This document shows, in pieces, positions 4,265 to 53,336 of a DNA stretch of 64,000 nucleotides. This DNA comes from Isoetes taiwanensis (taxonomy: Eukaryota > Streptophyta > Lycopodiopsida > Isoetales > Isoetaceae). The stretch covers positions 12,779,614 to 12,843,613 of the forward strand of contig JAJEKV010000033.1 of the NCBI GenBank assembly GCA_021234155.1, read 5' to 3'. A program made the translations under genes and the position numbers. Positions within the stretch are counted from its first letter, which is position 1. Every line of letters begins with the position of its first letter. The notes beneath the pieces are model-generated. The model saw nothing but the letters and a program-made list of their open reading frames with translations, searched no databases and was not told the DNA's origin.

Positions 4265-4386
4265 ATGACATGACCGCAGGTCATCTTCTTAACAAATGTT
4301 CTTTATTCCATTGATCTAAGTACTTTAATAGCATGTTGGCTTTTTTGAGAACTGGTATGTCATTTTTTGTTGTTATGTTGTCCATC

Positions 4387-27815: not shown

Positions 27816-27884
27816 GAGTTTAAATGGTTGGACTCAATTGTTAGTGTTAAAATAAAGCACAAGGATATGCTGGGTTCAATCCCC
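27816..27884 (+). repeat. tRNA-like (SINE-type) pol III promoter block, copy 2
   Basis: A-box-like GAGTTTAAATGG at 27816-27827 and B-box-like GGGTTCAATCCCC at 27872-27884 are the counterpart of 4200-4264. The B box is identical in both copies. Confidence 0.35.
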
Positions 27885-28021
27885 ATGACATGACCTAACG
27901 GTCATCTTCTTAACAAATGTTCTTTATTCCATTGATCTAAATTACTTTAATAACCTGTTGACCTTTTTTGAGGCTTCACAATTGCTATATATCATTTTTT
28001 GTTGTTATGTTGTCCATCTCC

Positions 28022-28380
28022 AAGGCCCCGAAGGGGCAAAAAAAAAAAATTAGACAACACAAACCATTACATAAAACACTTTTAAATTAAAATATCCCTA
28101 AAACCCCCTATGGTTTGGGTGCATATTCACGCTTGGGAGGGGAGGCGTTCTTAAGGCCCTGAAGGGGCCAAAAAAAAAATTCTGCAACACAAACCATTAA
28201 CATCCAACATATAAAAATTAAATCCCCGTAAAACCCCCGTGGTTTGGGTGCATATTCACCACGGGGGTGACTCAGGAACATCGAGAGCTATTGGATGGGC
28301 ATATTCATGAGTTATGCTTTGATTTGGACCGTAGATAGCGATCCTCGTTTGTGGGGTATGCTTTCGTACAAGTGTTTTTT
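28022..28380 (+). repeat. Tandem pair of ~131-bp repeat units plus tail, copy 2
   Basis: Units start at 28022 and 28153. Each opens with a palindrome (GGCCCCGAAGGGGC or GGCCCTGAAGGGGCC), then a run of A, then 'acaacacaaaccatta', then 'aaacccc..ggtttgggtg' and 'catattcac'. The tail holds 'attggatgggcatattcatg' and 'gatcctcgtttgtggggtatg'. It matches 4387-4720 and 34205-34575. Confidence 0.75.
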
Positions 28381-29689
28381 TTTTATACTGTATAGCAAGA
28401 CTTGTGAAATACTATAAGGTTTGGTGCAATATACTTAATGGTGTTGATTTCAAACATGTATGAAATAGGTCTTGCTCTGTGTAGCATTATAGAAGTTTTA
28501 GAATATTATGCTAGATTGAAAGATACATGATGACTGTTTATTTATACCTATAACTAGCAGATGGTGCCTAGCTCAAGTGTGTAGTTACATGTAATGGTGC
28601 ATCCATTTTGGATAGTATTGTCCATGCATGGCAATTCCTTCAGAGGTATTGACTTCTGATGATGAGACGATAAAATATATAAGTTTGAGGATATAGACAA
28701 TACGTGAGAACCCTTATGATGCATAACATATACAAAATGGCAACTAGGTTGCCGCTTCCGCCTCTAGAATGGAAAATGGCTCAAAGATTTCGCTCAAGCG
28801 GTCGGTGAAGGTAAGCATCAGGTCACCCTCCCAGTTGCCATGTCATGGCGGTTTGGAAGTTGGTCACCAATTTCATACCCGCTCCTGACTCCTGCTGGTC
28901 GTGGGGCCCCTGGAATCAGCTCCCCACTTTCCATGCCGCCATATGTCATGCCATTATTAAGATCATAGTTGTGCAGACTTTGGGGCTAATATTGTAATGT
29001 ATAGGTAAGAAACATGCTTGCGATGGGCAATGACGCAAAGGTTTGAATTGGATATGACTAACATCTTATTTATGGCTTCTTGATTCTTCTTCTTCTTCTT
29101 CTTCTAGACACCCATAAATAGACATACATAAGCCCATGGACAATGGCACATAGGTTTGAAGTGAAATAACTTGCTACACTTCCGATATCTCATAGGTACA
29201 CTTGCAATTGTCTACCAACAAACATTTTATTCATGCCTGCTTCTTCTTCTGCATCTATGTACGAACAAAATAGTTGATTACATGGTCAAGTTCTATATCA
29301 ATGATCAAAATACTCTACACAAACTTGTATTTCATGCAATATGAATATCTTGAATTTTTTTAACATCATTGGAATGATTATGCACAATCTATACAATTAA
29401 GTATTGTTGGAAGCATGCATTAGCTTCCTCAGACTTCTATAAGAAACAAGCATTTATCACACTAAGTCTCATCCTATGTCCAAGGGTTTTGATTTGCTTT
29501 GGTTGATTGGTCATGTAGTCCGGGTTCAAGCTTTCATGACGGCATGCAATGTGGGAGCAATGTTAATGTGGTGGTATGAGTGTCTCATAGGCTTAAAAAA
29601 ACAAATGTTGGCTTAAAAGGACATGTTCTTTAAAATGGGTAAATAACTCAAAAGCATGTGTGAAGCGTATTCGGTTAAGTTAACAATAA
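28381..29689. other. Duplication copy 2 interior, no gene recognised
   Basis: This is collinear with about 4720-6035. A (TTC)n microsatellite lies at about 29085-29106, and a segment at 29353-29462 recurs at 15983-16100. No coding region is recognised. Confidence 0.5.
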
Positions 29690-30786
29690 TCCCATCGATC
29701 TGAGCGCGGATCGATATTCTAGAGGGGGCAAGCATGCATGTCTCGCATGTACGCATTGCATGCCTTCTCTAGTTGGGAGAATGCTATATTAGGCGAGGTT
29801 CATCATCAACGTCTCATCGGCGCTTCCTCTTCTCTCTCAGCAGTACCTTATTCTCTATTTTTTGAAACCATGCAGGGGAGGGGCTTCTCCCTATTTGGAT
29901 TGACCAATTTGGTGTTTCTTTCATGTTGTGGCATGTCCTTTCTCGGCCTTGCCTCTTCTTTAGCCATAATCCTTTGCCCTTCGTCCTCGATCCCCTTTTG
30001 ATAAGGAAGTTCTCTTCTATTCGGGAGGTTTTTGTCGTTTTCATGCGAGCCCCATCCTAGAATCCCATCGATTCGAGCATATACCCTCTAGAATCTATAG
30101 GGGGCGAACATGCATGTCTCGCATGTATGCATTGCATGCCTTCTCTAGTTGGGAGATCGTTATATTAGGCGAGGTTCATCATCAACGTTTCATCGGCGCT
30201 TCCTCTTCTCTCTCAACAGTACCTTATTCTCTATTCTTTGAAACCCACCCTCCCCTCCCCCGCCCTTCCCCCCTAATTGTTTAATGTATTTATCGCCTGG
30301 CACGCATGACCAGCCCTTCTATTGAAGAGGTTTTAGTTTTGTTGTCGCGTGGCACGAGTGATCAGCCCCTCCACTTTGGGAGGTTTGTATTTGTTCTAGT
30401 GTTGGTGATGTGCAGGTACAGGTTGGCAAGCGGCAACAGCTTCGACTTCTCCATTCATGGGCATTTTGGGAGCGAATTCTCAGCCTTACATTTGTCCAAG
30501 CCCCGTGCTGAAGGCTTATCACTAGGGTTTTTCCTCGAAAAACTGGAAAGGCGGGGTTTTTAATCCTGGTGATAAGCTTTCGACAGGTACAGAGACCAAA
30601 CATCTATTAGCATTGTATTTCATGGGGTCCAAGTTGTATAATTGGACATTCCCTTTATTTTTCTTCGTGGGTAGTTCGCATGTGTGCGGCTACCCACTAT
30701 CCACCATTGTAGAAAATCTGCTGAGATGAATGAGAAGTCTATCTATCGGAGGTTTTTGTCGTTTTCATGTGAGCCCCATTCTAGAA
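29690..30786 (+). mobile_element. ~1.1-kb insertion: dimer of a small element, with nested LINE tail
   Basis: The uninterrupted site is seen at about 6035 in copy 1. The insertion is bounded by AATAAT-like sequence on both sides, a possible 5-6 bp target-site duplication. It consists of two tandem units. Unit 1 is about 29690-30062 and unit 2 about 30063-30786; both begin 'cccatcgat', share 'catgcatgtctcgcatgta' and 'aggcgaggttcatcatcaac', and end 'ggaggtttttgtcgttttca' followed by a 'gagcccca(t/c)tctaga' end. Unit 2 has its middle replaced by other sequence, including a LINE-tail-like hairpin (30512-30580). No transposase or reverse transcriptase is visible. Confidence 0.65.
30512..30580 (+). 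repeat. Hairpin matching the LINE 3' tail motif
   Basis: GCTTATCACTAGG and CCTGGTGATAAGC form a 13-bp outer stem with one G:T pair. They enclose GGGTTTTTCCTCGAAAAAC and GGCGGGGTTTTTAATCC. The inner part matches, in opposite orientation, the tails at 20534-20572 and 22441-22481. Confidence 0.7.
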
Positions 30787-35384: not shown

Positions 35385-35960
35385 AACATTTGCGGGGACA
35401 TTAGCTTTTCCATCAAATAATACAGATTTTGGGATCTCTTTTGGGAAGCTAGTCAACACCACTGTTTCCTTTCTTAGAGGCTGCAACCATTCCATCACTT
35501 TCTCCTACATTTGTGGCTAAAGCAACCAAATGTGTTGTTTTAAGTGCATTTGCAGCAAGTTATAATGTTATGGCCTTGTGATTGAATAGTGGCAATGGCT
35601 CTGCGAAATGCATGCATATCTAGAGATGGGTCTGCTTAGTGCAGAGATCCTTAGTAGAGATGGGCCTGCTTAGTGCAAGCTTAGCTAGAGATAGTATGCT
35701 TTAAAATGTCTTATGCTTGATAGGTTGGGTGCATGTTAAATAGACAAATGCAAGGATAAGTTGCTGCAGCGCTTTTGTGTGATTAGGCTAGTTGCTTGCC
35801 TAGGAAATCTGCTGGTTCCCATGGATAGATCTGCATGCTTAGGGGCAGGACAGAGATAAGTTACGACATGTTATTCATCCTAAGGCTTAAATGGTGGACT
35901 GCTTGTGGTTACAGTTTGCTACGCATATCAGTGATCAATGCAAACACATTTCCAACATGA
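35385..35960. repeat. Local duplication, copy A (uninterrupted)
   Basis: This matches 37036-37162 joined to 48724-49030. Landmarks are 'acattagcttttccatcaaa', 'gaggctgcaaccattccatc' and 'gagatgggcctgcttagtgc'. It shows the empty site of the large LTR retrotransposon: here 'tacatttgtggctaaagc' is continuous. Confidence 0.85.
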
Positions 35961-36153
35961 GCTTTAAATTGTTGTCTAATCTGCATGCCATACATGAAAT
36001 TAGAACAATGAAAGAAAAACGCCAGGCTTTCGATTATGTATGCAAAAAAATAAAAGTTCTTGATAAATGAAATGGCTTCATTGGCTCAAGAAACTAATAA
36101 CCTAAGAAACTTAAATCTTACCTTAACTTGTGCAAGTGTAAGCTCCATGGAAT

Positions 36154-36920
36154 TTTTTTTTTTTTTTTGAAGAACTGTGTCATCAATATATTAAAAGAAT
36201 GGTAATGTTACAAAGCAAGTGAGGAGGAAGGAGAACTGCCCCAAAGAGACAGCGATACCTCGACTCCACAACAAACTCACAGAAAAACTGCAACTCTACT
36301 GCTGTACAAACCGACCATCACCATCTACAACACCCAAGAAGTCCCGCCAAATGGAAAACTTCCGCTCTACTAATCCCAGGAACACCAGAAAGCTTTGAAA
36401 TAGCTTGTACCTGAGTCGAGGAATCAGAGAGGCTGCAGGCTGCTGAATCCCCTGAAAGATCCACAACCGCCGCCGCTTCCAAATCAGCCACACCAACCAA
36501 CCCGCCACGACGGATGCAAGGCTTCTTTGCCGCAAGCAAGAGCGGCCAAGCACCGAGATACACATGAAGCAAAGAAGCTGGCGGCTAGTTAATCTCACTG
36601 AAAGCAGCCCTGATCCAATCCCAGGCAACCTGCAAGTGAGGGCATAAAACCAGACAATGCTCCACAGTCTCACGATGAAGGCCACAGCAAGGGCAGAGAG
36701 GGCTCACACCCGGCCTAAACTGACTCACAAGGGCATTCACCCTGATACAGCGGTGCACCACCTGCCACAGAAGCACCCTAACCTTCGGTGGGAGAAGTGA
36801 GCTCCATGTCCACGTCCAAACCGAGCGCCATCGAGAACCCGGAAGCTGCAGAGACCACTTGCCTGAAGGGGGCAGAGTGTCATGAATAGCCAACACCCGG
36901 TAACAAGACCGCACAAAACA
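36154..36920 (-). mobile_element. 5'-truncated L1-type LINE with 14-bp target-site duplication
   Basis: A poly(T) run on the plus strand (about 36153-36168) is the poly(A) tail of a minus-strand insertion. Flanks carry the exact duplication AAGCTCCATGGAAT at 36140-36153 and 36921-36934. The insert of about 767 bp encodes a terminal piece of LINE ORF2. The frame at 36585-37016 has PPKVRVLLWQVVHRCIRVNA and a C-x2-C...H...C zinc-binding block (SPLCPCCGLHRETVEHCLVL), the zf-RVT domain found at the C terminus of plant LINE ORF2. It shares about 160 bp with the left end of the LINE at 49738. Confidence 0.9.
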
Positions 36921-36934
36921 AAGCTCCATGGAAT

Positions 36935-37162
36935 GTTGTATGAATTGGAAAGCTAATATGTGTACAACCAAAGCAGTACATTCCATGCCATTCTTTGAAC
37001 TGGAAATAACATTCACAGAACTACATAAAATAGTTCTCTATGGGGACATTAGCTTTTCCACCAAATAATACAGATTTTGGGATCTCTTTTGAGAAGCTAG
37101 TCAACACCACTATTTCCTCCCTTAGAGGCTGCAACCATTCCATCACTTTCTCCTACATTTGT
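36935..37162. repeat. Local duplication, copy B left part
   Basis: 36937-37040 recurs at about 49036-49135 ('aagctaatatgtgtacaacc' and following). 37036-37162 recurs in copy A (35385 onward). It ends with TTTGT at 37158-37162, the left target-site duplication of the LTR element. Confidence 0.85.
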
Positions 37163-37286
37163 TGTGACGTTCAAAGCCACGATATCGCCCTCGGATTTAT
37201 ATATCGCCACGCCCGTCGCGTACACGCCACCCCGACTGACGTGTACGCCAACGTGTAGCCAAGTGGGTAGCCCCTAGGGGGCAACT

Positions 37287-37530
37287 TGCTAAGAATGTGC
37301 ATTAGTATTAATGTGCACATTTTCCAATGTACACATTAATGTGGGCACACATTTCCATGTGGCCACTTGATGCCAAGTGGGCCATACCCATAGGTGCAAT
37401 TAATGTGCACATTTTCCAATGTACACATTCATTAATGTGCACACATTTCCATGTGAGCACATTTGGGTGCACACATTTCCATGTGGGCACATTTGGCCAC
37501 CTAGCCCTTAAAGGCAAGTGGGCCCTTTTC
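37287..37530. repeat. U3 cluster of short palindromes and direct repeats
   Basis: CACATTTCCATGTG-type words and AATGTGCACATTTTCCAATG blocks recur several times, and CCACTTGATGCCAAGTGG is itself a palindrome. The cluster lies 60-300 bp upstream of the TATA-like box, and an identical cluster is in the right LTR (47146-47388). The position suggests promoter or enhancer repeats. The repetitive 69- and 74-residue open frames here are by-products. Confidence 0.7.
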
Positions 37531-37588
37531 CCAATTATCCCACATGCCTAAAGGGGATAATTGGAAACCCTAGCCAACCCCCTTGTCT

Positions 37589-37596
37589 ATTTAAGT
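37589..37596 (+). promoter_or_regulatory. TATA-like box of the 5' LTR
   Basis: TATTTAAG follows 'cccccttgtc'. The same box is at about 47447-47454 in the 3' LTR. It is the best candidate core promoter in the LTR. Confidence 0.5.
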
Positions 37597-38874
37597 AGGA
37601 GAACCCTAACTTGCCCATTTTCGTTTCTAGGGTTTTAGAACTCTGTTTTGGCTGCCTCATACCAAAACCGCCTTCCGAACTTCTGCACCGAGAGGATTGC
37701 AACGTTAGTTTCCCTTGATTCAAGTGTTTTGGGATGGGGATGGTCGAGCTCAGGTCGGGGAGGAGGAACTCAAGGATGGGGTATTTAGGCAATTTAGTAG
37801 TCTAAACCCCATTTCAGACCATCGAATCAGCAGGTTTAGCCTCTTAAATTGCCCATAGCAACCCCCTCTAGATCTCTAGATAGCAGATTCTAACTAAAGA
37901 ACCTAACTCTATGATGTAGATTAGATCTAGTTCTTTAGTTCTCTGTGAAGTATATGTATGATGTATCTCTATGAACTCCTTGTATTGGGAAGGGGGGTAG
38001 AGACCTAAAGCTTTGTAGTTGATGCTCCTAGAGTAGCCTCTCTAGCACACTGTAGATGCGGCCTGTGCACAAGAGCCACACCAGGTTGTGGGTGAAGGGG
38101 CGACCGGGCTTATAAGGAGATTAGGTGTTGACTCTTGAGCGATCCCTATGGTGTGTTAGTGCTTTAGGGATCATTGTGACTAGGTCTAATGGCTTGCCCC
38201 ACTGCGTGTGGGCAAGGCATGGGCTCACACTCGTGAGGTAGTGGATATGACCTTCCATTGAGTTCAAGTCGAATCACGGCGGTGGCCCTCTAGTCACCTT
38301 GAGTCGCATGTAGATCTCTCGGAGGGAGTGATCCCTACCGCCCCATCGAACTGGGGAGATGAAACCCGTGAATAGCCCTTTGGCTATGCATCGGCTGGCT
38401 CTCTGGTCCAGTCCCAACACTTTTCAGCCTACTGCGCAAAGTGTGCACGGGGAGGGGCGGATGGAGTGGACAACCCTAAGCCATGTTCTTATGCCAGCCA
38501 AATCCATTGCCATGAATTTGCATGCGCAATGAACTCACGGAGACCCAAGCCGGCCGGTCCTCCCTTTGAGTCCGAGCCTTGGGTAGGATTTCCTCTATGC
38601 ACAGGCCGATCATTGTCTTTTGCAGATGTGATGTGCCACCTGTAAGGGTGGGTATATGTGTTGCTCTCATATCTTCGACATGTATGTTTACGCTTCCGCA
38701 GCTAGGTAGGCCCTGAGGGAGACGGGGTACAATGACCCTTTCACTCTTCCCACTGGAACCCGTCACGGTTGCAGTGTTATGTGAAGGGCCCTGTATCGGC
38801 ATGGAGCTGGTATGGGGGAAGAACTCCTGTTTGTATACGGTGAGTGCACCGTATGCGAGTAGGGGACGTCACAG

Positions 38875-38890
38875 TGGTATCAGAGCAATG
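38875..38890 (+). promoter_or_regulatory. Primer-binding site (initiator Met tRNA)
   Basis: TGGTATCAGAGCAATG starts one base after the 5' LTR end. It is the exact plant tRNA-iMet complement used by most Ty1/copia and many Ty3/gypsy elements. Confidence 0.92.
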
Positions 38891-39075
38891 TTCTTGGAGA
38901 CCAAGAGCAAAGCACTGACCATGCTCCCAGTAGTACTAACTTGATAGGATCCTCAAACCTCGAGTAGCGGGAAATTTTTTTCCTGGGGTAGAGCTAGTAA
39001 TTATCTAAGATTAGGATAATTAGAGAACATAGGCACTTAAGAGATCCTACTAAATTTCAGGCACTCTTGGCCAAT

Positions 39076-39145
39076 GACTCCAAGAGTGCGCCAGGAGCAT
39101 GTTAGGTTCAGACCTAATGGCCCTCTCGCGCACTCTTAGAGTAGT
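39076..39145. repeat. Double palindrome 1 of 5
   Basis: The outer arms CTCCAAGAGTGCGC and GCGCACTCTTAGAG enclose an inner palindrome TTAGGTTCAGACCTAA. The unpaired part keeps the 'CAGGAGCATG' linker. Confidence 0.85.
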
Positions 39146-39290
39146 CACCCCATATGAACCCTAGAACTTGGCCTTAGGAACTCCAAATGGTAAAATAAAA
39201 GATGAAATCCCAATCAAAAAGCTCAAAATAGCTAGAATTATATGTTAAAACATCGAAAAAACATTAAGTACAAGTCACTTTTGGAACAAT

Positions 39291-39358
39291 GACTCCAAGA
39301 GTGCGCCAGAGTATAGTTAGGTCCCGACCTAACCCCCTCCTCGCGCACTCTTAGAGTC
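39291..39358. repeat. Double palindrome 2 of 5
   Basis: The outer arms GACTCCAAGAGTGCGC and GCGCACTCTTAGAGTC enclose the inner palindrome GTTAGGTCCCGACCTAAC. This is the most complete copy. Confidence 0.88.
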
Positions 39359-39503
39359 ATCCCTAAAAGTGACCTCAAAAATTGATCATAACTTACTCAA
39401 ATGGTAAAGGTAATAATAGAATCTTGTTTATAATGATTAAATTAGTGGGAAACGCATGTTAAATTGTGTAAAGGGGATAAGTTTAGAGCGGAAAGGGACA
39501 ACA

Positions 39504-39569
39504 CCTCTAAGGGTGCGCCAGGGCATAGTTAGGTCTGGACCTAATACCCTCCTCGCGCATGCTTAGAGG
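39504..39569. repeat. Double palindrome 3 of 5, with changed but still paired arms
   Basis: The outer arms are CCTCTAAG and CTTAGAGG in place of GACTCcaAG and CTtaGAGTC. Both sides changed together, so pairing is kept. The inner palindrome is TTAGGTCTGGACCTAA. Confidence 0.85.
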
Positions 39570-39900
39570 GGTTCGAGAGAAAATAGTTGAAGAAGACCTA
39601 GCTTCGATTCGAGATATGGAGGATTTCATCAACAAACCAAGAAATTAAGCAAGGCAGAGATGGAGGTCGTGCAACACTTGAAGACTCATTGGCGTGCACG
39701 CCCACGCAAAAAGACACCGAGAGACATGAGGCGTGAAGTACATCAAGAGGACAGATAAATAGAACACAAGTCGCTTTTTGTAACTAATGTGTTTATATGT
39801 GATGTATGAAAATTTCGAATAATAAAGATATATAGTCGTTAAAAAATGTGTATTCATTAGGTACGTGAGACGGAGCAAATGTGATATTTTGACTAACGAT

Positions 39901-39966
39901 TTCCAAGAGTGCGCCAGAGCATAGTTAGGTCCCAACCTAACCCCCCCTCACAAGACTCTTAGAGTC
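39901..39966. repeat. Double palindrome 4 of 5
   Basis: The arms CCAAGAGTGCGCCAGAGCAT and CAAGACTCTTAGAGTC enclose the inner palindrome GTTAGGTCCCAACCTAAC. One arm has lost its GCGC match. Confidence 0.8.
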
Positions 39967-40109
39967 ATCCAACCAACCGGGGCCTTGATTAGCCCTACTT
40001 GCTCCAAACGTAGTAATAAACAAAGAAACTTGCATTTAGGAAGAAAACTAATAGGAATTTACCCTCCCAAATGGGATTCTTGGCATCCATTAGGCAGAGA
40101 TAGGCCAAT

Positions 40110-40175
40110 GACTCCAAGAGTGCGCCAGAGGCCACTTAGGTCCCAACCTAACACCCCAAGCAAGCACTCTTAGAG
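40110..40175. repeat. Double palindrome 5 of 5
   Basis: The arms GACTCCAAGAGTGCGCCAGA and GCACTCTTAGAGA enclose the inner palindrome TTAGGTCCCAACCTAA. It is the last unit of the series. Confidence 0.8.
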
Positions 40176-43100
40176 ACGCCCAATTTTTCAAACCCCATAA
40201 CTTGAGCTCTGAGCTCCAAATCGCTTTGAAATTTGTTGCAATAGGACCGTTAGACAGCCTAGAATCCATTTATGACCTCAAATTAGGCTAGAAATGTCAA
40301 ACTTTAGCTCAAAATGACCAAAATTGCTCAAACCCTTGAATTGTTTTTCCAAACTATGGTTTGTTTGTAAATAGAAGCATACCCCATTAGTACCACAAGT
40401 ATTGCTCTCGGCCCAAAGCTGATGCCTTACTCCAAGGTAGAAGTGCCCAAGAACATCCCTTTGTGATAGTCATCTAAACCTCAGCATAGCAACCGAAGTC
40501 CAACTGTTGGTACATCACCTCTGCTCATGCCAAAAGCATAAACATTGACCTAATTTTGTGTCCTTCTAATAGAGTTTGACCTATACAGCCGCCACATTCA
40601 CACTCCCTATTGCCAGGATACCTAGAAAGGAGCTAGAGTCTAGAGCTGCCCAAGTCACTCCGTGTGTAGAGATTGGACCCCCCCAAACCAACTTTGCTAG
40701 GACCTTAGAGTATGCCTCAAACATCAGGGAGGTCCTGCAAAACAAACCCTCATTTCATGCCATACCACACGGCCTAAGGTCCATAGACTTGTAGATTAAA
40801 GAGATGTCTCCAATAATGCTGCTCGAGCCATCTTGCTTGCTTATAGAGCCCAAAAAGGTAGGAGAGCCCTTCAAGTAGACCCTTAGACTCTAGGATATAC
40901 GAGAGTTGCTTTTCAAGCACTGGGGCCAGAGCCCACGATTTGGCCGAGAGGCTTAACTTTGAAGACATCAAGGTCCCAGCCGATGTACAAACAGATAAGA
41001 AGAGGAGACCGAAAAGCAGACCCAAGAGAGGGAAGCACAACGACAAACACCTCAACCGACAAACGAGTAGAACAGGACACCACCGACCTATCATCAATCT
41101 CCATCAAATGGGAAGAATATTGGTAACCAACGGCACCAAGAATGTTCTAGATGTCAACCTCCCGGCTACCACGTCCACGAGCTCACATCAGAAAGAGGAT
41201 CTCAACGCCTTCACCAACTCGACGCACATGAGTTTCAAATGGAAGAACGCGAGACAACAAAATACAGGTACAGGAAGATGTTAGGCATCGATGTCGCGTT
41301 AGCATCACGAGCTAGGGCCAGAGGGCATAATCTTCCGTCGAGGAGACAACTCATGGCTTACACAGAGCGTATAGAAACCGGGAGGGAAGATCACCACGAC
41401 CTTGCAGCCCAAAGCAGCTCAAGCTAACGTCAACAAAAGGAGTAACCAAGCTAGGCAACCACAAAGCACCTAAGGCTGACCAAGATGAGCCTCCAGCTCC
41501 CTTGCACCAGCAGGAGAACTTTCATCGGTTCCAAAAAGGTAGGAGACCATGAGAGGGAGGAGACGCATATCAAGGAACATTTCCGACTTCGAAGGCCTCA
41601 GACGCGACTAGGGGCAAGACCAAGGAGGAGAATATTCTGCTCAAACAGGAATTCGGACCCGTGAACACCTAGAAACCAAAGGAAGGGCGGCTTTACTCAC
41701 GCCAGCCAAGGAGTGCACTTCGAATGGTTAGCACCCAAAGGACGGAGGAGACCACCTAGCCAGCGAGGTAGAAATCACGCTTAAAGGCTTACCCGGAAGG
41801 AGCTACGGTAAGTGCAATGGAGATGACCACACTTCCGTGCAATGAGAGAGCCACCTCGAATGAAGCAAAGCCCAAGCAACAGAGTCGACTTTCAGAAATT
41901 CAACTCGGGGAATGACAATGCCCGCCCACCGACCACGATCTCGTGAGCTTCAAGACATTCAAGAATGCCCGACCGCAACAGCCGGTGACCCTACTCAAGC
42001 TCGATCAATGGCACCGCAATCAGCAATCTTGCAACAACACACCGCATGTAGGGACGTGGCGTTACCGCGATTCCTCGCTGATTTAACATACACAACAAGG
42101 AGGAGCATCTTTTTCAAGGGATCACATCGACGAACACTCTTCGCAACTTGAGGTGATCAGCTCGGATCAGACATAAAGCTCAACAATAGTAGCAGCATCT
42201 CAAGGAATCCCTGAGTCAACCCGAACGAAGAAGATGCAAAAAACCAAGAATCAAATGCAATAGGAGGAAGGGAAAACCTAGAGGAGTATAAATAATTAGG
42301 TAGGTCTTAAGTAGTTGTTTTGCAAAAGTGGATGAATTAAAATCCCAATGTAAATGCGTATATGTCTATTGTATATCTAGGATGTCCACATATATAGTGG
42401 AGAAACATGGGTTTAAAGTCATGTTTTACTGATTTAGCGCTTAGATCAGGAAGCTCCTTCACTTCGACTACCAAAGGAGGAAGCAAGGAGGCACAACTAT
42501 AGCCCAAGATCAAAATGGAAGAGCAACTACGAGGGAGAAACGACGAGAGGCCAAGCAAACCTTCAACTCCAAACACTTCGGGAAATGCCCTCAAGCAGAA
42601 GACTGCTCGGCCACCCAATGTTAGAATAAGAGACAACACCGATCATGTCAAGATCATCAACGCGGCACGTGACATCGCCGTGTATAACACTACCTCTTGT
42701 AGCAAGTGGCAAGACTTGACTAACTTATGACATGAGTGGCCTCAACAATGGAAGGAGGAACACCCCGACATCAACGAGCCAACTAAGAAGGCAACATCTC
42801 GACGACCATAATCCCACCTTGTGGTAATATAGGGTGATGCGCTATGACACGTGTATTAGATGGAGATGCACTATTTAAAGGCAATCATGATGAGGAGACA
42901 TGCCTCCAACAACTAGGTGACGGCTTCGTCAGGTACTCCTACCAGTAATTAGAAGAGAAGAAGCCGACCATATCTCCGACATGTGGCACGTCAAACGCCC
43001 AAGGTAGAAGCATTCGACACCTTAACGACAAGGATAGCAACTGAAGCACCTTCGGCAAAAAGAGAGTTCAAGATAATAGCCAAGCTATTCAACGACAAGA

Positions 43101-46100
43101 GTATATCTAAAGGTGTACTTCTTCAACTCAAGGATCAAGTCGCGCGGTATATAAGGATCCATCATCCCGACAATATAGCCAGCAGGGAGGAGAGCCATGA
43201 TGCTTTACTTGCCAGAGAGACCGACATGCATAGAGGGACAAAGGTCAGGAACTGAAAGCTGGAGAAGTGCTAGCAACCGACTTCTTCCACGAGCTCCCTA
43301 GAGGCAACAGGAGGACCAAAACTGAAGAGCACAATCAAAGCCACCGGAGGGTACCTCAAGGCAAGAAGACGGCATAGCACTGTGGAACGTGTTAACGTCC
43401 AAGCCATGCGATCGAGGGGATCAAACGAGGAAGTTTGGAAGCTCGATGGAGAACCAACTAGGTGAGGCGAGCCGATGACTTGCACGCGGCCTTGCATGCA
43501 ACTTGGTGAACCCAAGGATGAACGATTCAAAGAACAACTGCAGAAGAGAACAACTCCAGAGGAGTATAGCCAAAGGAATCGCGCACAGCCTCAAGAGACG
43601 CCTCCAAATAGCTTCAAGTATCATGAAGGGGGAAACAATTACAGCCCGAGAACAGAATCAGGAGGCAGACAGAAATGTCGAAGCATCAACGACCAGCACA
43701 CCTTTAGTTAGAATGTGATGCAAAGCGTGTTGTGCCATAGCCGACAAACATCGGAGGGCCCAAGTATATCAACAAGTTACCCCGGAGTACGAGCTGACGT
43801 ACAAATAGGAGGATATAGATCGTCAACACCATGCCACCGGAAGGAACACCGATGACATTACCAAGGAGTAGGTGTGCAACTCGAACGGAGGCACAAGGGG
43901 GACTTAATAGCTCTATTAGTAATTGTAATTATGTAAGCTATATGCTTTGCATATATAGTTCCCTTGTTATTTCTTCCCTCCCATAGCGTAACAAATCAAA
44001 CGAAGAGATGTCAGCCAATTTGCAGGGGTGAAGCAATCAACATCTTCAACACTCTTCGAGCAACGCGATAACGACAAGAGGACTCGATGTATGAGACGTC
44101 GATGGAGTCGAGGAAACAATATCGGATATAGAGTCATCCTTTAGCTGCCAAGACAAAGAGTTCAAGATGAAAGATCTTTTTCAACGGCGCCACCTTCAGG
44201 CTTTTGAAAAGCGGCATGGAAGATTTCAAGTGACCAACTACACCATCAAAGACCAGCAAGGAGAGGCTTCTAAACGAACAAAGTCAACCTCTACATCAAA
44301 GAGGAGCCACTGTCAAGGAGACTGAAGTATCGAGCGACTCGGAAGAACGTTACCTTGCTCCTTCAAGCAGGCAACGAGCGGATGAGCTTCTAGCAAGCTC
44401 AAAGATCTAAGGCCATGGGGCCTAGTAGGTTAAATGTATGGATGGTAACATCCATATTGGGATTAGAAGGCAATTCCGGATATTCTCGTTGAAAGGATTG
44501 CCCAATTGGGAAGGAGACGCATAGGAGTAACTAAAATTATACACGATTGTTAACAGACATCCAACGTATTGAAACCACTTGGTGAGATTGATCTCCTCGC
44601 TAAGAAGGAATCATTACTAGGATAATTGTTGACCATGTATAAATCTAGTACCTCCAAAAGAATAATCCAACCGAAAGAAAAGAAGTAATCTAACAAGTCC
44701 GGCCAACTTGTTACGATGACATCAATTCGATTGGTAGGAATATTCCAAGAGCTAAATAACTAAGAAAGGGGGAATCTCTAGAATATAAAAGAATAATATA
44801 TGTAAGGTACATCTAAAATAAGAATTATAGTAATCAAATAGTCTTTTGAGACAAAAGGAATTGTCATGATGACAAAACCTTGTGGTTTAGAATCGTTCTA
44901 ACTAAGTAGGTAACCCATGCGAAATAAGAAGCGTATAACCTCTTAAGGGGAGAGAATAGATATGACGTTGTGTACAACGTCATTGAAGGGGTGCAGGACC
45001 AATTTCTTTTCGAAGAAAGTGGGAGGGCTCAATCTTATGATTGAACGTACTTGTATCGAATTGACCGACCCGTAGAATAGAGTTCACTCCGGCAATGGCC
45101 GAAGCGAATAGAGCGTAAAATAGATAGATACCTTAGGCTCAGGAGGCCTTCAACGTGCGAGACTGACGTAGTAGCTAGCTACACCAATGAAGTGGAGCAA
45201 AACTATGGGAGCAATGCAACGACCAAGTCATCTCCAAAGTACTCAACGCCAGCTCAATGGGTGGATGCGTTCTAGCCTTAGGTAAGGTGTGCGCATGTAT
45301 TATAAGCTTTAATGTGTCTTATTGATAAGTTAAATATAGATCCTAATAACGCATAGAAATTGTTGCATGTATATGTATCATAGGGAAATAAGTTAAATAA
45401 CAACGATAATGTGAGGTAGCATGTTAATTGATCCTTCTTGAAGGACATAATTCCTTCCAAGGATAGCTATATGACCGGGGTCCTTATAAATATAGATAGA
45501 AAATAGAATTCGGATATACTTAAGTATATCTTAGGGATATATTTCCAAGGGTAATGCAGACCCAAGGAAGAGAATAAGAAGCACATCTAATTCTTGTGTA
45601 TGATAATTAAAACCTTGTCTATGTAACAATAGGTAGGAAGTAGGGTTATTGTTTAAATAATCACGATCTAAAAGTCGTTAAATATTGCAAAGCTTAGAGT
45701 AAATTTAATTGTACTATCGGAAGTAATATATCCAATACTATGATAATGTTAATTCATAAATATTACCTTAGGGTAATTATGTTAATCACATGCATTAGGG
45801 AGCGTAAAAAAAAAAAAAAAAAAATTGGCTCGTGCATGTCGATTTGTGTTTAGATTAGTTTCATGTGTAGTTAAGATTAATGCGCATGCAACCTATGCTT
45901 GGTATGGATTGCATGCGTTGTTACCGGATGATGAGACCACTACGGTGATCTCTAGGGCGTGGTGTAATGTCAATGTAGGCATGACCGCGTTTCACCGGAC
46001 GAGTGGAAGGTAGATTAGAAAGTCTATACGTCCCGCGGAAGTAGATGACCTCGAGAGAAAGGAGGTCATTAAGGAATGCATTGATAGGAAAGGCACCTTT

Positions 46101-47007
46101 AGCCCCATATATGCTTTGATAGGAGGAATCTATCCTTCACGCCCCCCACGCGGGAAGGATATCCTCCACGCTGGGCAACTAGAGGTGTAGGCATGAGCGG
46201 CATATAGGCATATAGGCGTTGTCTCCACGGCCATAATGGAAGATCCACCCTCTTCCTTCCTGTAGGAGATTAGCCATGCATCCATGTAGATAGGTGGGGT
46301 GGTCACCATATAACCAAAATTTTTGTAATAATTAATAATAGGTAGTGTCGACTGAGGCCAATAGAGCTCAGGAGGGCAAGGAGGTCGAACTCTGAAGGCT
46401 TGCAACACAAATTTTGTTATAATGTGTTGCAAGGGATGAAGGGTACCTTAGAAGTGTAAATTTTGTATGAAATTGATAAACTTTGATAAACTTAAATGTT
46501 GTATTAAGTAAGGTTAATAATTACCTTGCGTGGATTAAGTTATAATGTGATAAGTTAATAGGATAATGAAATAGTAATGTCTTAAACATTACCTTAGAGT
46601 AATTCTAATAATTAAGATAGTAAGTATGTAATTCATATAGATATTGTAAAATTAATGCGAGGATTTTAAGGTGCGAAGACACGCAACACAAATTTTGTTG
46701 GAATGTGTTGCAAGGAATGAAGAGTACCTTAAATAATAATTGTATATGAAAGTGTTAAATTGTGATAAACTAAATGTTGTGATAATAGAAACTAATAAGT
46801 ACCTTATTTTAGTAGAAGTTACTGAATTGACAACTTATTTGATAATGTAATGGCGTAATAATGATTTAAAAATATTATCTTAAGGTAATCGTAATAAATG
46901 TGTAAGTATTATAGTAGTATATATCGTATGCATCGGGTTGATTGCGGAGGTTAGGAAGATTCCAAGGTGGGAGAACCAACGATCTTTGCTGGGACAAACA
47001 TCATTTC

Positions 47008-47020
47008 AAGGTGGGGAGAA
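47008..47020 (+). promoter_or_regulatory. Polypurine tract
   Basis: AAGGTGGGGAGAA lies directly before the 3' LTR. Position and composition are those of the plus-strand primer. Confidence 0.85.
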
Positions 47021-48723
47021 TGTGGACGTTCCAAAGATTATATCCCTCGGGGCGTATATCGTCTTCGCCACGCCACGCGTTACACGCCACCCCGACCGGC
47101 GGTATGCCAACGTGTAGCCAAGTGGGTAGCCCCTAGGGGCAACTTGCTAAGAATGTGCATTAGTATTAATGTGCACATTTTCCAATGTACACATTAATGT
47201 GGGCACACATTTCCATGTGGCCACTTGATGCCAAGTGGGCCATACCCATAGGTGCAATTAATGTGCACATTTTCCAATGTACACATTCATTAATGTGCAC
47301 ACATTTCCATGTGAGCACATTTGGGTGCACACATTTCCATGTGGGCACATTTGGCCACCTAGCCCTTAAAGGCAAGTGGGCCCTTTTCCCAATTATCCCA
47401 CATGCCTAAAGGGGATAATTGGAAACCCTAGCCAACCCCCTTGTCTATTTAAGTAGGAGAACCCTAACTTGCCCATTTTCGTTTCTAGGGTTTTAGAACT
47501 CTGTTTTGGTTGCCTCAACGGCCAAAACCCGCCCTCAGAACTTCTGCACGAGAGGATTGCAGCGTTAGTTTCCCTTGATTCAAGCGTTTGGCCCGGGATG
47601 GTCGAGCTTTCAGTGGGGAGGAGGAACTCAAGGATCGGTATTTAGGCAATTTAGTAGTCTAAACCCCATTTCACCATCGAATCAAGAGGTTTAGCCTCTT
47701 AAATTGCCCCATGACCCTCTAGATCTCTAGATAGCGATTCTAACTAAAGAACCTAACTCTATGATGTAGATTAGATCTAGTTCTTTAGTTCTCCTCAGGA
47801 AGTATATGTATGATGTATCTCTATGAACTCCTTGTATTGGGAAGGGGGTAGAGACCTAAAGCTTTGTAGTTGATGCTCCTAGAGTAGCCTCTCTAGCACA
47901 ATTGTAGATGATGCGGCGTGCATAAGAGCCACACCGGGTTGTGGGTGAAGGGGGGCCGGCCGGGCTTATAAGGAGATTCGTGTTCGACTCTTGAGCGATC
48001 CCTATGGTGTGTTAGTCTTTGCCGGGATCATTGTGACTAGGTCTAATGGCTTGCCACTGCGTGTGGGCAAGGCATGGGCTCACACTCGTGAGGTAGTGGA
48101 TATGACCTTCCATTGAGTTCAAGTCGAATCTGAGGCGGTGGCCCTCTAGTCACCTTGAGTCGGCATGTAGATCTCTCGGAGGGAGTGATCCCTACCGCCC
48201 CCATCGAACCGGGAGATGAAACCCGGAATAGCCCTTTGGCTATGCATCCGGCGGGCTCTGATCAGTCCCAACACTTTTCAGCCTACTCGCAAAGTGTGCA
48301 CGGGGAGGGGCGGATGGAGTGGACAACCCTAAGCCATGTTCTTATGCCCGCCAAATCCATTGCCATGAATTACATGCGCAATGAACTCTGGAGACCCAAG
48401 CCGTCAGTCCTCCCTTTGAGTCTGAGCCTTGGGTAGGATTTCCTCTATGCATTGTGCTGATCATTGTCTTTTGCAGATGTGATGTGCCACCCAGAAGGGT
48501 GGGTATATGTGTTGCTCTCATATACTGACATGTATGTTTACGCTTCCGCAGCTAGGTAGGCCCTGAGGGAGACGGGGTACAATGACCCTTTCACTCTTCC
48601 CACTGGAACCCGTCACGGTTGCAGTGTTATGTGAAGGGCCCTGTATCGGCATGGAGCTGGTATGGGGGAAGAACTCCTGTTTGTATACGGTGAGTGCACC
48701 GTATGCGAGTAGGGGACGTCACA
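47021..48723 (+). repeat. 3' LTR (1,703 bp)
   Basis: This is the partner of 37163-38873. The start reads TGTGGACGT, with one extra G relative to the 5' LTR; the end reads ACGTCACA and is followed by TTTGT. A related segment without LTR ends is at 7340-8060. Confidence 0.92.
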
Positions 48724-48728
48724 TTTGT

Positions 48729-49737
48729 GGCTAAAGCAACCAAATGTGCCGTTTTAAGTGCATGTGCATCAAGTTATAATGTTATGGCCTTGTGATAGAA
48801 TAGTGGTGATGGCTCTGCTAAATGCATGCACATCTAGAGATGGGTCTGCTTAGTGCAGAGATCCTTATCAGAGATGGGCCTGCTTAGTGCAAGCTTAGCT
48901 AGAGATAGCATGCTTTAAAATGTCTTATGCTTGATAGGCTGGATGCATGTTAAATAGGCAAATGCAAGGATAAGCTGCTGTTGCGCTTTTGTTTGCGGGC
49001 AGATACAATGGTGGCTTCTGTGATTACGCTAGTTGTATGAACTGGAAAGCTAATATGTGTACAACCAAAGTTGTACATTCCATGCCATTCTTTGAACTGG
49101 AAATAACATTCACAGAACTACATAAAATAGTTCTCTGTTTGAGCCAGATAATAGTTAGAGTCATTGAAGGAAACTGGCTCATCTTTTATTATGAAAAAGA
49201 TAGATGAGAAAATAATTCTCAAGAAGGGTTAGCGAACTCTACCCGGACATACATGGAATCAAACCAAAAGAGAACTTTGAGCAGATAGACCATGACTGAG
49301 TGGACTTGCATACCTTCAATTGTTATAGAAGATATACATATTGGACTATCTAGCAAGCTAGCATGGTCCTATAAGAGATAAAACTCTTCGATGTGAATAA
49401 CTTACAACTAATTGAAAATACTAAGCATGCATCAAAAAAATAATTTATGGTAGTGCAAAGATACGAACACCACATTTATATTTTGTTAACTCTGTCCAGC
49501 TTTGCGGAGATGACTTTTATGGAAAGGAAGTAACATCCACCTATATATAAAGCATTATGATAACAAAAATGTGGAATGGAAGATCAGATCATCACTATTT
49601 TGCACCTTTTCACTGTTGTCTGAGGTATGCCATTAAGCTCTGCAAAAACTGATGACATTTTAGACCATGTTCTATTATTGCTACAAATATTTGCAAAGGT
49701 AAAGACAACAACTATAATCAATAATGTCGAATGGATT
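48729..49737. other. Local duplication copy B right part, then unique intergenic sequence
   Basis: 48729-49030 matches copy A (35515-35960). 49036-49135 matches 36937-37040. From 49140 to 49737 the sequence is AT-rich, with no gene recognised. Confidence 0.7.
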
Positions 49738-50825
49738 AGCCTGATACAGCGGTGCACCACCTGCCACAGAAGCACCCTAACCTTTGGTGGGGGAAGTGAG
49801 CTCCATGTCCACGTCCAAACTGAGCACCATCGAGAACCCGGAAGCTGCAGAGACCACTTGCCTGAAGGGGGCAGAGTGTCATGAATAGCCAACACCCGGT
49901 AACAAGACTGCACAAAACAAGAAGACACAACATCCGGATGAACCTTCCAAACCTGCACCACCAAATCATCCTGAGGGACTATAGGTATGTGTAGCGGAAT
50001 ACTCCACGCCACTTGCTCCCAGATAGCCCGGTCACTGCCCCTAAGGCAAAAGTGAGCTCGAAAGAACTCCCACGAAGCTAGCTGACCAACCAATCCTCCA
50101 AGGTGAGCACAGCAGCTCGCCTCCAACGGGCCTGCGTCCGAGCATGCACAGTGGCAGCCAAGGGCAAGTGCGCAGGGGGTAGAGGAACCCACAAGAAAGG
50201 AGAAGAGTGGTGATAAACTGAGGCATAATCTAGCTGGAAGAGCACATGCACATGATCCCAAGCCCGCAACACCCCCGTGAGAAAAGAGGATGCATGTGGG
50301 AAAGGCCGGAGACCATACAACAGTGCCCAGGGCAACTCCACATGCACAGACGGCTTCCCAAATGCCACACAATGGCGAAGAGACTGCAACAACAGCGCTG
50401 CACTAGGAGAAGATGCTCCATCCTGCAGAGTGCTCCAAACAAACTTGGAGACCAACACCTTACTATGCAATGCCAAATCCAGAACGGCCAAGCCCCCATC
50501 CTCCCGGGGGCACTTTAACAACTGCCCCTTCATCATCCCCGCCCCACACAAAATTTCGAACAATCTTATCCAAAGCCTGTATCTTACCCTCAGGAGCTAA
50601 CATCGCAGATGCTGTATACACATGAGTGCTACAAAGTACTGACTTGGCAATAGTGATCCTACCTACCATGGACAACTTGCTACCCTTCCACCAATTGAGG
50701 TGTTTCTGCAACCCCTGCAAAATCTCATCCCACACCTTCCCCATGGAAACATCCCCTCCAAAGGGAATACCCAACAGCTTAGTACACACATTACCTGGAA
50801 GCACCTTCCAAGGGAATAGAGCCAA
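49738..50825 (-). pseudogene. LINE ORF2 C-terminal region, degenerate
   Basis: Minus-strand frames contain the post-RT 'thumb' sequence (50463-50825: LLGIPFGGDVSMGKVWDEI, LNWWKGSKLSMVGRITIAKS and VRNFVWGGDD) and, near 49740-49900, 'PPKVRVLLWQVVHRCIR' at the start of zf-RVT. These blocks have a fixed order in plant L1-type ORF2. At least three frames are used, and the zinc-binding cysteines are lost because the element stops at 49738. Confidence 0.75.
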
Positions 50826-50845
50826 ACAAGGGGGAGGCGGAGTCA

Positions 50846-51800
50846 GCTAGGCCCATAATGCGGAGCATTTACCCCAATTTAGAAGAATGCCCGAGGCCAA
50901 GGAGAAAGTATCCAGCAAACCCTTCACATTCCGCAAATTCCTCTCTTCTGCAACCAAGAAGAGGAAAGTGTCATCGGCGAACTGGTTAATAATCTGTTGG
51001 TTACCATCCTGCATCCGAAGCCCATCCACCACCCCTCCTCCACTGCAGAAAAAAACAACTGAGACAGTGCCTCCGCTACAATCGTAAACAAAAACGGCGC
51101 CAAAGGGCACCCCTGACGCACCCCTCTGCCTAAGGAGAAAAAGGCGGAGGGTTCACCCTGGCACACCACCGTAGCCTGTGCTGACCTATGCAGCTTCATG
51201 ACTGTCTCTGTAAAGCGAGGACCACAGCCCAATGCTAACATCATGGCAGACAAGAACTCCCAACGGACACTATCGTAAGCTTTGGCAAAGTCAAGCTTAA
51301 GATAGGCAATGCCTTGACCTGTTCTCCTGGCCCAATAAAGGCCCTCATAAGCTGCGGCAACATTAGTCAAAATGTTCCCCCCAAGAACAAACCCAGACTA
51401 CATCTTACTAATGGAAGAAGTCAACATCGGCTTCAACTTCTCTGCCAGGGCTTTCGCAATAATCTTGTACACAGAGGACAACAAGGAGATAGGCCTCCAA
51501 TCATTAATGGTAGAAGGCTGCTTAACCTTAGGAATCAAGGAAATGCATGTGGTATTCAAGATCCTCTCCATTTGAGAAGACTGCAACAACTCAAGATACA
51601 CCTGGTACACAGACTCACCAGCCCACTCCCAATAAGTCTGAAAGAACTCCATAGGGATGCCATCCAGCCCAGGACATTTATCCTTGGCCATGCACATACA
51701 TGCCTCCGCTAAATCCTCTCTGGAGAGCTCCTGCTCCAAGCTCTCACGCTGGTGAGGCAGAATAGATGGCTTAACAACCCCCAAAACAAGCTCCTGCATC
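50846..51800 (-). pseudogene. L1-type LINE reverse transcriptase, degenerate
   Basis: The order of motifs is complete. It runs from the N-terminal KDKCPGLDGIPMEFFQTYW and CISLIPKVKQPSTINDWRPI (51398-51799), through motif A LDFAKAYDSVRWEFL and motif B GVRQGCPLAPFLF (50924-51370), to the catalytic block with FADDTFLFLV (50847-51110). The last has F-A-D-D where L1 enzymes usually have YADD or FADD, so the catalytic aspartates remain. The three segments are in different frames, so no active enzyme is encoded. Confidence 0.85.
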
Positions 51801-52239
51801 TCCTTCTCATAGGGAAGAGTGCGTGTGCGAAAAACCCTGAGAAATGAGCATGTACATACCTCTCCAAATCAGCGGGATCCTCCAAAGTCCGGCCATCAGG
51901 CAAAGCAACGGACATCATAGATGCTGCATATCGCCGCTGCCTAGCTGCTCTGAAGAACACCGACGAACTTGTGTCCCCCTCCTTCAATCAGGTAAGGGCC
52001 GCCTTCACACGCGCCTCCTGCACTTTAACCTGCTCCAGAGCAACAATACGCTGCAACACTGCATTCTCCCTAATGCCATCAGAAGGCTGTGCCCGAATCT
52101 TCTCCAACTCCTGATAGAGACCATGCAACTTTTGCCGCTCTTGCTGCACACGCTGCCTACCAAAGACCTTGGCAAAACGCTTCACCCTGGCCAACGCAGT
52201 CACCATACCAGACAATACCCTTCAGAGATGAAAAGGTAT

Positions 52240-53170
52240 CAAGCCACAACTCCCGCACCGGGCCGAAACCGAGAAATCCGCTGTCGGCCCGGCGGGTGTT
52301 CAAACGGAACACCGCCCTAGAGGGCCGAGAGGCAACCGCACTCGACCGACAAAACCCGAGGGTAATGATCGAAATGGAGGTAGACAAAATGTTACTCCCG
52401 GCGCAAAGAGGGCACACCATCCGGTCGCATGGGGAAGCATAGCACCGGTCATGCCTAGCATATGCCCGGCCCGCACCAATCTGCCTATTACAATAGGTGA
52501 AGGACAAGTCCCCAGGGACCTCAACCAAGGCCAAATCCTGCAACAAACGAGACCATTGATCCCTCTCAACCCCATGCACAACGGGTTCCGAACCGAGGCG
52601 ATCCTCTACTCACTCTACTATATTGAAGTCCCCCTAACAAAGAACCAAGCGACACACGCAACCCACCAAGGGCTCACAAGAACTTATTCGGATGTGGCCC
52701 ATAAAGCACCCCTCACCGAGAAGGCTGATTAGGGGCATAAACATTAACAATCCCCCACTCTTGCCCGCCCTCCAACCACTTAATTATTGCCCACCGACCA
52801 AACCTGTCTGCTGCAGAGTATGTGACCTGCACATCCATCCTCCAAGCAATAAGAGTACCCCCATTAGTCCGCCTTTAAGAAGAAGCAATAGAGACAAAGC
52901 GCCTACCAACCATATTCATGAGCTTTGGACATATCACCCATGTGGCACTTATGCTCCTCGAATGCAAACAATATCAGGACGCAACTGCCGAAGTGTTAAA
53001 GAAACACAGGCCCTCTTACTACTAGAGGACCGCACCCCCCCCTCCCCCCCACATTCCAACCGAGGATCGACCTATTCATCCCCCCAGGAGAAGTGTCAAG
53101 CCCCACATGCCTACCCACCGGGCCATCAACCAACTCCACAGAGTCATCATCTAAAGCCGAGGATTAATCA
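52240..53170 (-). pseudogene. L1-type LINE endonuclease, degenerate
   Basis: Minus-strand translation gives SILGWNVGG near 53060, RACVSLTLRQLRPDIVCI near 53000 and WGIVNVYAPN near 52740. These correspond to the N-terminal, helix and 'YAP' blocks of the AP-like endonuclease (EEP superfamily) of plant LINEs. Later frames, about 52300-52581, have lost the usual GDFN block. Stops interrupt the domain many times. Composition is GC-richer than the rest of the element. Confidence 0.7.
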
Positions 53171-53336
53171 TAGCAATGTGACCCCGGCTTATCGTGACAT
53201 TCCACTTCCAACACGTGTTGGAAGTCCCCGTGCACCTCCATAGAGTCATGGGCCATACTAGTCTCTACCTCCAACCGGGCTGCTCCAGCCACCTCATGCT
53301 CAAGACATACCGCTTCTGGGACATCCCCAGCGGGGA

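Follow-up and report, generated by a model that had tools for sequence, protein, structure and literature searches.

The packaging and dimerisation signals of the retroviral 5' leader are hairpins that lie between the primer-binding site (PBS) and gag, and, to our knowledge, the ways in which the plant LTR retrotransposons choose their RNA and in which the enzyme-less copies are copied are poorly understood. Five repeated units were found downstream of the PBS of an LTR element in the window, i.e., the whole stretch of 64,000 nucleotides of Isoetes taiwanensis DNA that was analysed. These units are similar to the retroviral signals in their hairpin form and in the placement between PBS and gag, but they have no conserved self-complementary loop, occur in five copies over 1.1 kb and show no preference for the plus strand.

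Conserved RNA structures have been predicted for the large retrotransposon derivatives (LARD, e.g., Sukkula), according to the accessible part of PMC7215508. Like the window element, which has no protein domain in the interior ORFs scanned, they are large LTR elements with PBS, polypurine tract (PPT) and target-site duplication (TSD), the mobilisation of which in trans is assumed. However, the window element carries in its leader the repeated hairpins common to the gag-pol relatives of the same genome, and no such array is described in that part of PMC7215508. In Drosophila gypsy, which is likewise an LTR element, the 5' untranslated region carries an insulator composed of an array of sites, with twelve Su(Hw)-bound repeats in the accessible part of the source (PMC2493044), whereas five 76-nt two-tier inverted repeats with a ~212-nt spacing are found here. 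The palindromic motifs of Sireviruses are also repeated dyads conserved in the non-coding parts of plant LTR retrotransposons; as far as the available part of PMC2829016 goes, however, they are short, belong to the Ty1/copia superfamily, lie in the LTR upstream of the TATA box (by ENV also, in two elements) and contain a CGG-CCG core in all but one, and the motif of the maize Sirevirus is given as CACCGGACNNNGTCCGGTG (PMC10760457, in part). The maize CRM1/CRM4 repeats share with the window array the involvement of chromovirus UTR sequence in tandem repeats and the homogenisation, but form pericentromeric arrays derived from LTR-UTR segments, and the terms 'palindrom-', 'hairpin' and 'secondary structure' have zero counts in the available text of PMC3648361. 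Thus, LARDs, the gypsy insulator, the Sirevirus palindromes and the CRM leader repeats are the nearest systems, each of them differing in place, size or make-up; among the matches listed in a literature search by title or the start of the abstract, which left most subscription papers outside, no leader hairpin array like that of the window was found.

Element and array in the window

The LTR element of the window occupies positions 37163-48723 (11,561 bp) between two copies of the TSD TTTGT (Table 1), and the alignment of its two LTRs (1693 columns) shows 93.7% identity. The element ends, the PBS and the length of 11.56 kb given in the first-pass annotation hold, with both LTRs, the TSD and the string TGGTATCAGAGC at 38875, which we take to be a PBS of the initiator-Met tRNA type. 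No Pfam match above the cutoff was obtained for the interior in 10 of the 36 listed ORFs (those of at least 60 aa) that were scanned. By its LTRs, TSD, PBS and PPT, its long interior with no gag-pol among the ORFs scanned and the cis sequences in common with putative autonomous partners, the element is a LARD-like non-autonomous LTR element. The Rfam scan of 36000-50000 gave no family at the gathering score, and the phage records gave no match, which is uninformative here.

Three interiors of the window type (window 41071-41427; L022:405-980; L024:140-655) have in common an open frame that contains QPPGYHVHEL and has no Pfam match above the cutoff in any of them. Around the element, at 35394-37162 and 48721-53960, there are minus-strand pieces of a reverse-transcriptase element, presumably a LINE, with RVT_1 in two ORFs (one of them below the cutoff), and its left and right fragments match each other out of order. 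The window also contains a direct repeat of ~6 kb, 83% identical between 27-6039 and 23605-29690, and a plus-strand ORF of 257 aa at 61350-62123 with a Pol_BBD match and a gag_pre-integrs match below its cutoff, perhaps, as we assume, part of a Ty1/copia-type element.

Table 1. Coordinates of the LTR element, its leader units and the segments common to relatives, in window positions
Feature	Positions	Strand	Basis or remark
TSD, left (TTTGT)	37158..37162	.	read directly; partner at 48724..48728
5' LTR (TG..CA)	37163..38873	+	alignment to 3' LTR, 93.7% over 1693 columns
PBS TGGTATCAGAGC	38875..38886	+	string read in sequence
Unit 1 (position 1)	39072..39147	+	fold and flank clustering
Unit 2 (position 2)	39287..39362	+	fold and flank clustering
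Unit 3 (position 3), clade-B-type arms	39499..39574	+	pair comparison and flank clustering
Unit 4 (position 4), broken lower outer stem	39895..39970	+	fold and flank clustering
Unit 5 (position 5), partly broken lower outer stem	40106..40181	+	fold and flank clustering
Interior	40182..47007	+	mostly common to L022, L024, L047, L050
Segment	46033..46365	+	just 3' of pol; common to L021 (69.9%)
Segment, longer version	46001..46365	+	common to L023 (81.8%)
PPT AAGGTGGGGAGAA	47008..47020	+	read directly
3' LTR (TG..CA)	47021..48723	+	LTR-LTR alignment and reading
TSD, right (TTTGT)	48724..48728	.	read directly

The array at 39072-40181 consists of five nested palindromes of ~76 nt in identical orientation, spaced by 215, 212, 396 and 211 nt, so that the claim of five nested double palindromes was borne out. 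Each unit was folded, and none of the 200 shuffles per unit was as good as the real one on the plus strand (z of -6.2, -10.4, -5.4, -4.9 and -4.4 for units 1-5); on the minus strand, the numbers of equally good shuffles were 0, 0, 0, 0 and 2 of 200. The minus-strand fold is clearly better in units 1, 2, 4 and 5 and about equal in unit 3, one reason being that pair 10-67, often a C.A mismatch (112/145 cells over the genome sample), is G.U on that strand. Unit 4 has a broken lower outer stem, and the pairing at 19-58 and 20-57 is lost in unit 5 also. The sequence of unit 2 recurs with 100% identity over 82 nt in 13 of 40 scored genome matches, the window itself included. The weak in-register likeness of the window spacers gives the array the appearance of a decayed tandem repeat with a period of ~212 nt. 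As to the linker described as conserved, its CCAG part alone is invariant within the window, and the whole linker CCAGAGCATA changes at 0.96x the spacer rate over the five positions.

Fixed positions and the shared leader in the genome

The genome searched (1.66 Gb in 1110 contigs) contains 392 + 348 matches to the inner pattern and 447 + 381 matches to the outer-arm pattern (828 full matches), with zero genome-wide matches to the reversed control patterns. From the first 100 of the 740 places of the pattern requiring the inner stem, 40 stretches picked for variety were fetched, which together with the window gave 41 loci and 160 units, all the loci being selected for a unit match. The orientation of the units is uniform within each locus, 40 of the 41 loci hold at least two units, and 119 spacings between neighbours fall at 200-225 nt (92), 380-440 nt (11), 1500-1800 nt (13) and elsewhere (3). 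By the clustering of flanks, five fixed positions were recognised, to which 136/160 units were cleanly assigned, and a called unit was lacking at two of 173 flank-predicted sites. A further 16/160 units were hybrids, with the upstream flank of one position and the downstream flank of another, namely 4-to-5 seven times, 3-to-4 five times and four other types once each (L001-L020, L025-L044). Since six of the seven 4-to-5 hybrids belong to one subclade and may be one event, the hybrid events are fewer than the hybrid units. Nevertheless, the hybrids mean that exchange takes place inside the units, by which the unit number changes; six units are present in locus L035. The array is, therefore, one inherited old structure of five positions with a ~212-nt period and no set of insertions.

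The seed pattern is fitted by 0/33, 27/33, 14/25, 16/20 and 2/25 units at positions 1 to 5, so that positions 1 and 5 are the less biased set. Out of the 160 units located, 157 were extractable and 146 distinct; the covariation test on the free tree took these 146, that on the position-wise tree took 135 (leaving out 24/160 without a clean position and one without a place in the tree), and the counts of rates took 133.

The first-pass annotation had proposed a search for autonomous relatives with the same leader units, and these were found. Eleven interiors were examined, i.e., the window and ten others taken from the array-bearing loci (10 of 40). Matches to Ty3/gypsy gag or pol, 3' of the array and with the array upstream of gag, are present in 6/11 (L021, L023, L045, L046, L048, L049), and the interior of the window type in 5/11 (window, L022, L024, L047, L050). 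Above the Pfam cutoff, L021 has gag, RNase H and the integrase zinc domain (rve being below the cutoff), and L023 has gag, RNase H, rve (integrase core) and a chromodomain; pieces similar to these domains occur in L045 and, fewer, in L046, L048 and L049, and with the chromodomain query a match was obtained in L021 and L045 as well. Pfam named no reverse-transcriptase domain in the pieces scanned, the L021 ORF expected to hold it giving only a sub-cutoff protease match. By gag, RNase H, integrase and chromodomain, the gag-pol relatives are assigned from their predicted domains to the Ty3/gypsy chromoviruses. The window family and the Drosophila gypsy element presumably belong to one superfamily.

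The exact string TGGTATCAGAGC lies ahead of the first unit in 12/41 loci, including four of the six gag-pol carriers (L003, L010, L020, L034) and four window-like loci (window, L014, L029, L031). In L003/L021, the gag match starts ~3.3 kb past the PBS, with the units in between. The sequences common in cis to the window element and to L003/L021 and L020/L023 are part of the LTR, the leader and 46033-46365, the leader thus being one of the few parts shared with the gag-pol elements. Positions 3 and 4 are separated by ~390-415 nt in the window element and in L014, L029 and L031, which are of its type; in the gag-pol carriers L010, L020, L025, L030 and L034, this distance is 1583-1729 nt, and a 3-to-4 hybrid stands in its place in the window-like L016 and in the gag-pol carrier L003. 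Both kinds of interior are present in leader clade A and in leader clade B. The window interior is 91.4% identical to L047 (clade A), 90.0% to L022 and 93.6% to L050 (both clade B), the segments compared being about the same. This independence of the interior identity from the leader clade suggests that leaders may have been exchanged between the lineages.

Arm matching, rates of change and strand

It had been proposed that both outer arms of unit 3 changed together, so that pairing rather than sequence was kept. The letters are real, and pair 6-71, which is A-T in units 1-2, is C-G in unit 3; however, the arm type of unit 3, CACCTC../..GAGGGGT, is shown by clade B throughout the array (C-G at 6-71 in 47/50 clade B units), so that the change belongs to a lineage or was concerted, and it breaks some of the pairs. 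Thus, unit 3 has non-pairs at 5-72 (A.G) and 14-63 (G.G), with G.U at 15-62, and, with its clade-B arms, was rejected as a case of private compensatory change. Over the five window units, two-sided changes between standard pairs account for 2 of the 24 pairs compared; pair 4-73, beyond the arms as first defined, is T-A in unit 2 and C-G in unit 3. With exceptions, each position has different arm types in the two clades. Clade A has A-T at pair 6-71 in 42/53 units of positions 1, 2 and 4, but lacks a standard pair there in 12/20 units of position 3 and 11/12 of position 5 (one of them with a gap). Two mismatches accompany the clade B type, namely A.G at 5-72 (56/144 cells) and, in many cases, G.G at 14-63 (30/145 cells).

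The covariation test, in our own R-scape-like, phylogeny-aware implementation of limited power, gave no single significant pair, either on the free tree (best E 1.6; pair 6-71 E 18; 146 distinct units) or on the tree keeping the five positions apart (best E 0.85; pair 6-71 E 37). The best-scoring pair in both cases was 5-72, yet it swaps G-C for A.G. The per-pair null on the free tree, uncorrected for the number of pairs, gave 0/100 for 5-72, 6-71 and 14-63, two of which are not swaps between standard pairs.

At the level of the helix, the matching of arms was found by two approaches. When the 5' half of a unit was combined with the 3' half from another element, position for position, the cognate halves folded better in 9/10 clade-by-position groups (the opposite in 1/10), with the Stouffer z of -5.0 (plus strand) and -5.1 (minus) within clades and -7.2 and -8.8 across clades, these folds carrying no tree-based null. 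The excess of Watson-Crick cells was 116.6 across clades against a simulated null of 9.1 +/- 15.5 (z 6.95; 0/400 simulations as high) and 32.1 within clades against 6.7 +/- 9.6 (z 2.63; 3/400); with the plus-strand wobble counted, z was 7.56 across and 2.44 within clades, with the minus-strand wobble 6.50 and 3.25, and in control registers slid by 1-3 columns z ranged from -2.65 to 1.90. The two arms of the outer stem are, thus, matched beyond chance when summed over the helix, both strands alike, and the keeping of pairing stands at this level, though not for any single pair. A column-permutation fold test also gave z of about -9.6 on both strands; because permutation also breaks blocks of neighbouring letters, the half-swap test and the simulated-null pair counts were relied on instead. 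Swapping between the positions of one element had the reverse result, the swapped halves folding better in 27/31 elements on the plus strand and 26/31 on the minus, which probably comes mainly from complementary linkers of different positions.

Rates were obtained as parsimony changes on a spacer-built tree, relative to the spacer rate, so that the unit changes are, if anything, overcounted; the Poisson values for these counts assume independent columns. Clear constraint was found in the inner stem TTAGGT/ACCTAA alone, with 15 changes against 99.1 expected (0.15x), far under the spacer rate at each of the five positions, including positions 1 and 5 (8 against 32.8). The outer arms as first defined have 232 changes against 264.1 expected (0.88x), split into 0.58x for the 5' arm and 1.17x for the 3' arm, and in the lower outer stem a slow 5' arm (0.41x) faces a fast partner (2.17x). 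A set of 'outer core' columns changes at 0.23x, but was chosen after viewing the alignment, as opposed to the 0.88x of the arms defined beforehand. The whole units change at 0.93x and the orthologous spacers of 32 loci look as conserved as the units, so the conservation of whole units failed as an argument.

No tolerance of G.U above A.C was found on the plus strand, changes from Watson-Crick pairs going to G.U and A.C 42 and 40 times without the lower stem and 46 and 69 times with all pairs, where whole blocks of the lower stem are replaced. The minus-strand folds are more stable in 10/10 clade-by-position groups (e.g., -43.5 vs -32.4 kcal/mol), and the wobble cells standing there number 437, as compared with 190 for the plus strand. 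The balanced changes together with the stabler minus folds do not favour a plus-strand RNA hairpin. The 4-nt centre is free to change and mostly not self-complementary; with 17/157 self-complementary tetraloops, a kissing-loop dimerisation signal was rejected, and the suggestion of a dimerisation role was not borne out for loop-loop contacts.

Explanations of the array

The reading preferred, which is held tentatively and with well under half of our confidence, is a cis-acting hairpin signal that is repeated in the units and common to the autonomous and non-autonomous elements; it is favoured by the matching of arms, the site after the PBS and the sharing by coding and non-coding partners. The ~212-nt tandem array with its five positions is part of the long 5' leader both in a Ty3/gypsy chromovirus lineage and in its LARD-like partners, each unit being a two-tier inverted repeat with an inner stem fixed in sequence and an outer stem that evolves fast with its arms still matched. 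The hairpins would act in the nucleic acid of the element, either the genomic RNA or the cDNA copied from it, and a common trans factor, for which Gag or nucleocapsid from the autonomous partner is the most likely candidate, would recognise them in the service of packaging or reverse transcription; a packaging role is possible. Enzyme-less copies that keep the leader would still be mobilised, and the likeness of the arms within a lineage may be due to exchange inside the units when they are copied. The support for any action of the units comes mainly from the inner stem. A narrower form, which is regarded as doubtful, considers the array as a multi-copy hairpin 'passport' of the chromovirus lineage, the outer arms changing with the lineage and the inner stem remaining fixed, so that enzyme-less partners would carry the leader type of either lineage in order to be copied by it. 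Counter to the hairpin signal are the lack of a significant single pair, the equal changes to G.U and A.C and the better minus folds; the outer arms at 0.88x and the clade A pair 6-71, often unpaired at positions 3 and 5; the uneven arms of the lower stem (0.41x vs 2.17x) and the better folds of the between-position swaps.

The hairpin signal is put slightly ahead of a DNA-level array of dyad protein-binding sites, an enhancer or insulator of the leader in which a host MYB or similar factor might occupy five dyads 3' of the promoter; this is nearly as likely, i.e., possible but rather uncertain, and is favoured by the strict inner dyad, its identity with the MYB site AC-III and the absence of strand preference. 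The inner TTAGGT-N4-ACCTAA amounts to two inverted copies of AC-III, ACCTAAC, which is given as a MYB4 target in the available part of PMC5467005; the right halves are ACCTAAC in 122/157 units and ACCTAAT in 29/157, and the left halves are ACCTAAC in 119. The window leader of 1327 nt contains ACCTAA[CT] ten times against 0.4 expected from mononucleotide shuffles, although such an excess would follow from the conservation of any inner stem; ACCTAAC occurs seven times against 0.2, which is equally trivial given the conserved stem. The free 4-nt centre and the balance of G.U and A.C changes outside the lower stem agree with dyads in DNA, with the twelve Su(Hw)-bound repeats of the gypsy 5' untranslated region as a precedent (PMC2493044, in part). 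Such an array, however, leaves the matching of the outer arms and the concentric layout unexplained, and AC-I, AC-II and AC-IV are absent among the listed half-sites (157 right, 156/157 left), of which the mutated ones are too few to weigh.

An old palindromic tandem repeat without present function, in which copying errors (template switching, templated correction of arms) keep the units alike and matched as in inverted repeats, is considered unlikely. It would account for the 16/160 hybrid units (with the reservation that six of the seven 4-to-5 hybrids, being of one subclade, may be one event), for the clade-specific arm types at every position, exceptions included, and for the 0.93x rate of whole units; the linkers, complementary between positions and poorly so within units, suggest shuffled halves of once-perfect palindromes. 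Against it, the inner stem is far under the spacer rate at all five positions, the linkers are largely position-specific while the arms change, and the lasting mismatches at 10-67, 5-72 and 14-63 (112/145, 56/144 and 30/145) would be erased by frequent templated correction. Selection for a structured minus-strand molecule, i.e., an antisense transcript or first-strand cDNA folding at the units, is improbable: stabler minus folds in 10/10 groups and 437 wobble cells against 190 speak for it, but the changes over the tree outside the lower stem are balanced (42 vs 40), and the standing excess may, therefore, stem from a few old fixed differences. By far the least probable is the insertion of each unit on its own as a MITE-like palindromic DNA transposon, an alternative already named in the first-pass annotation. 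The units are palindromic and present in hundreds of copies in the genome, but occupy five fixed positions with homologous flanks, the window spacers are weakly alike in register, and no duplicated target sites were seen around the five window units; independent insertions are refuted for the loci examined.

Hundreds of natural units, from coding and non-coding partners and with two leader types, have one repeated leader structure in common, which gives direct, testable predictions on what is recognised by the replication machinery or the host. As a separate observation, the 3' linker of position 1 and the 5' linker of position 5 (usually AGAGGCCA) are complementary in all three clade groups, and their duplex has the lowest mean energy of the 25 combinations in each group, the linkers inside one unit pairing less well. 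Such a long-range pairing between the first and last units is more simply explained as a relic of perfect ancestral palindromes.
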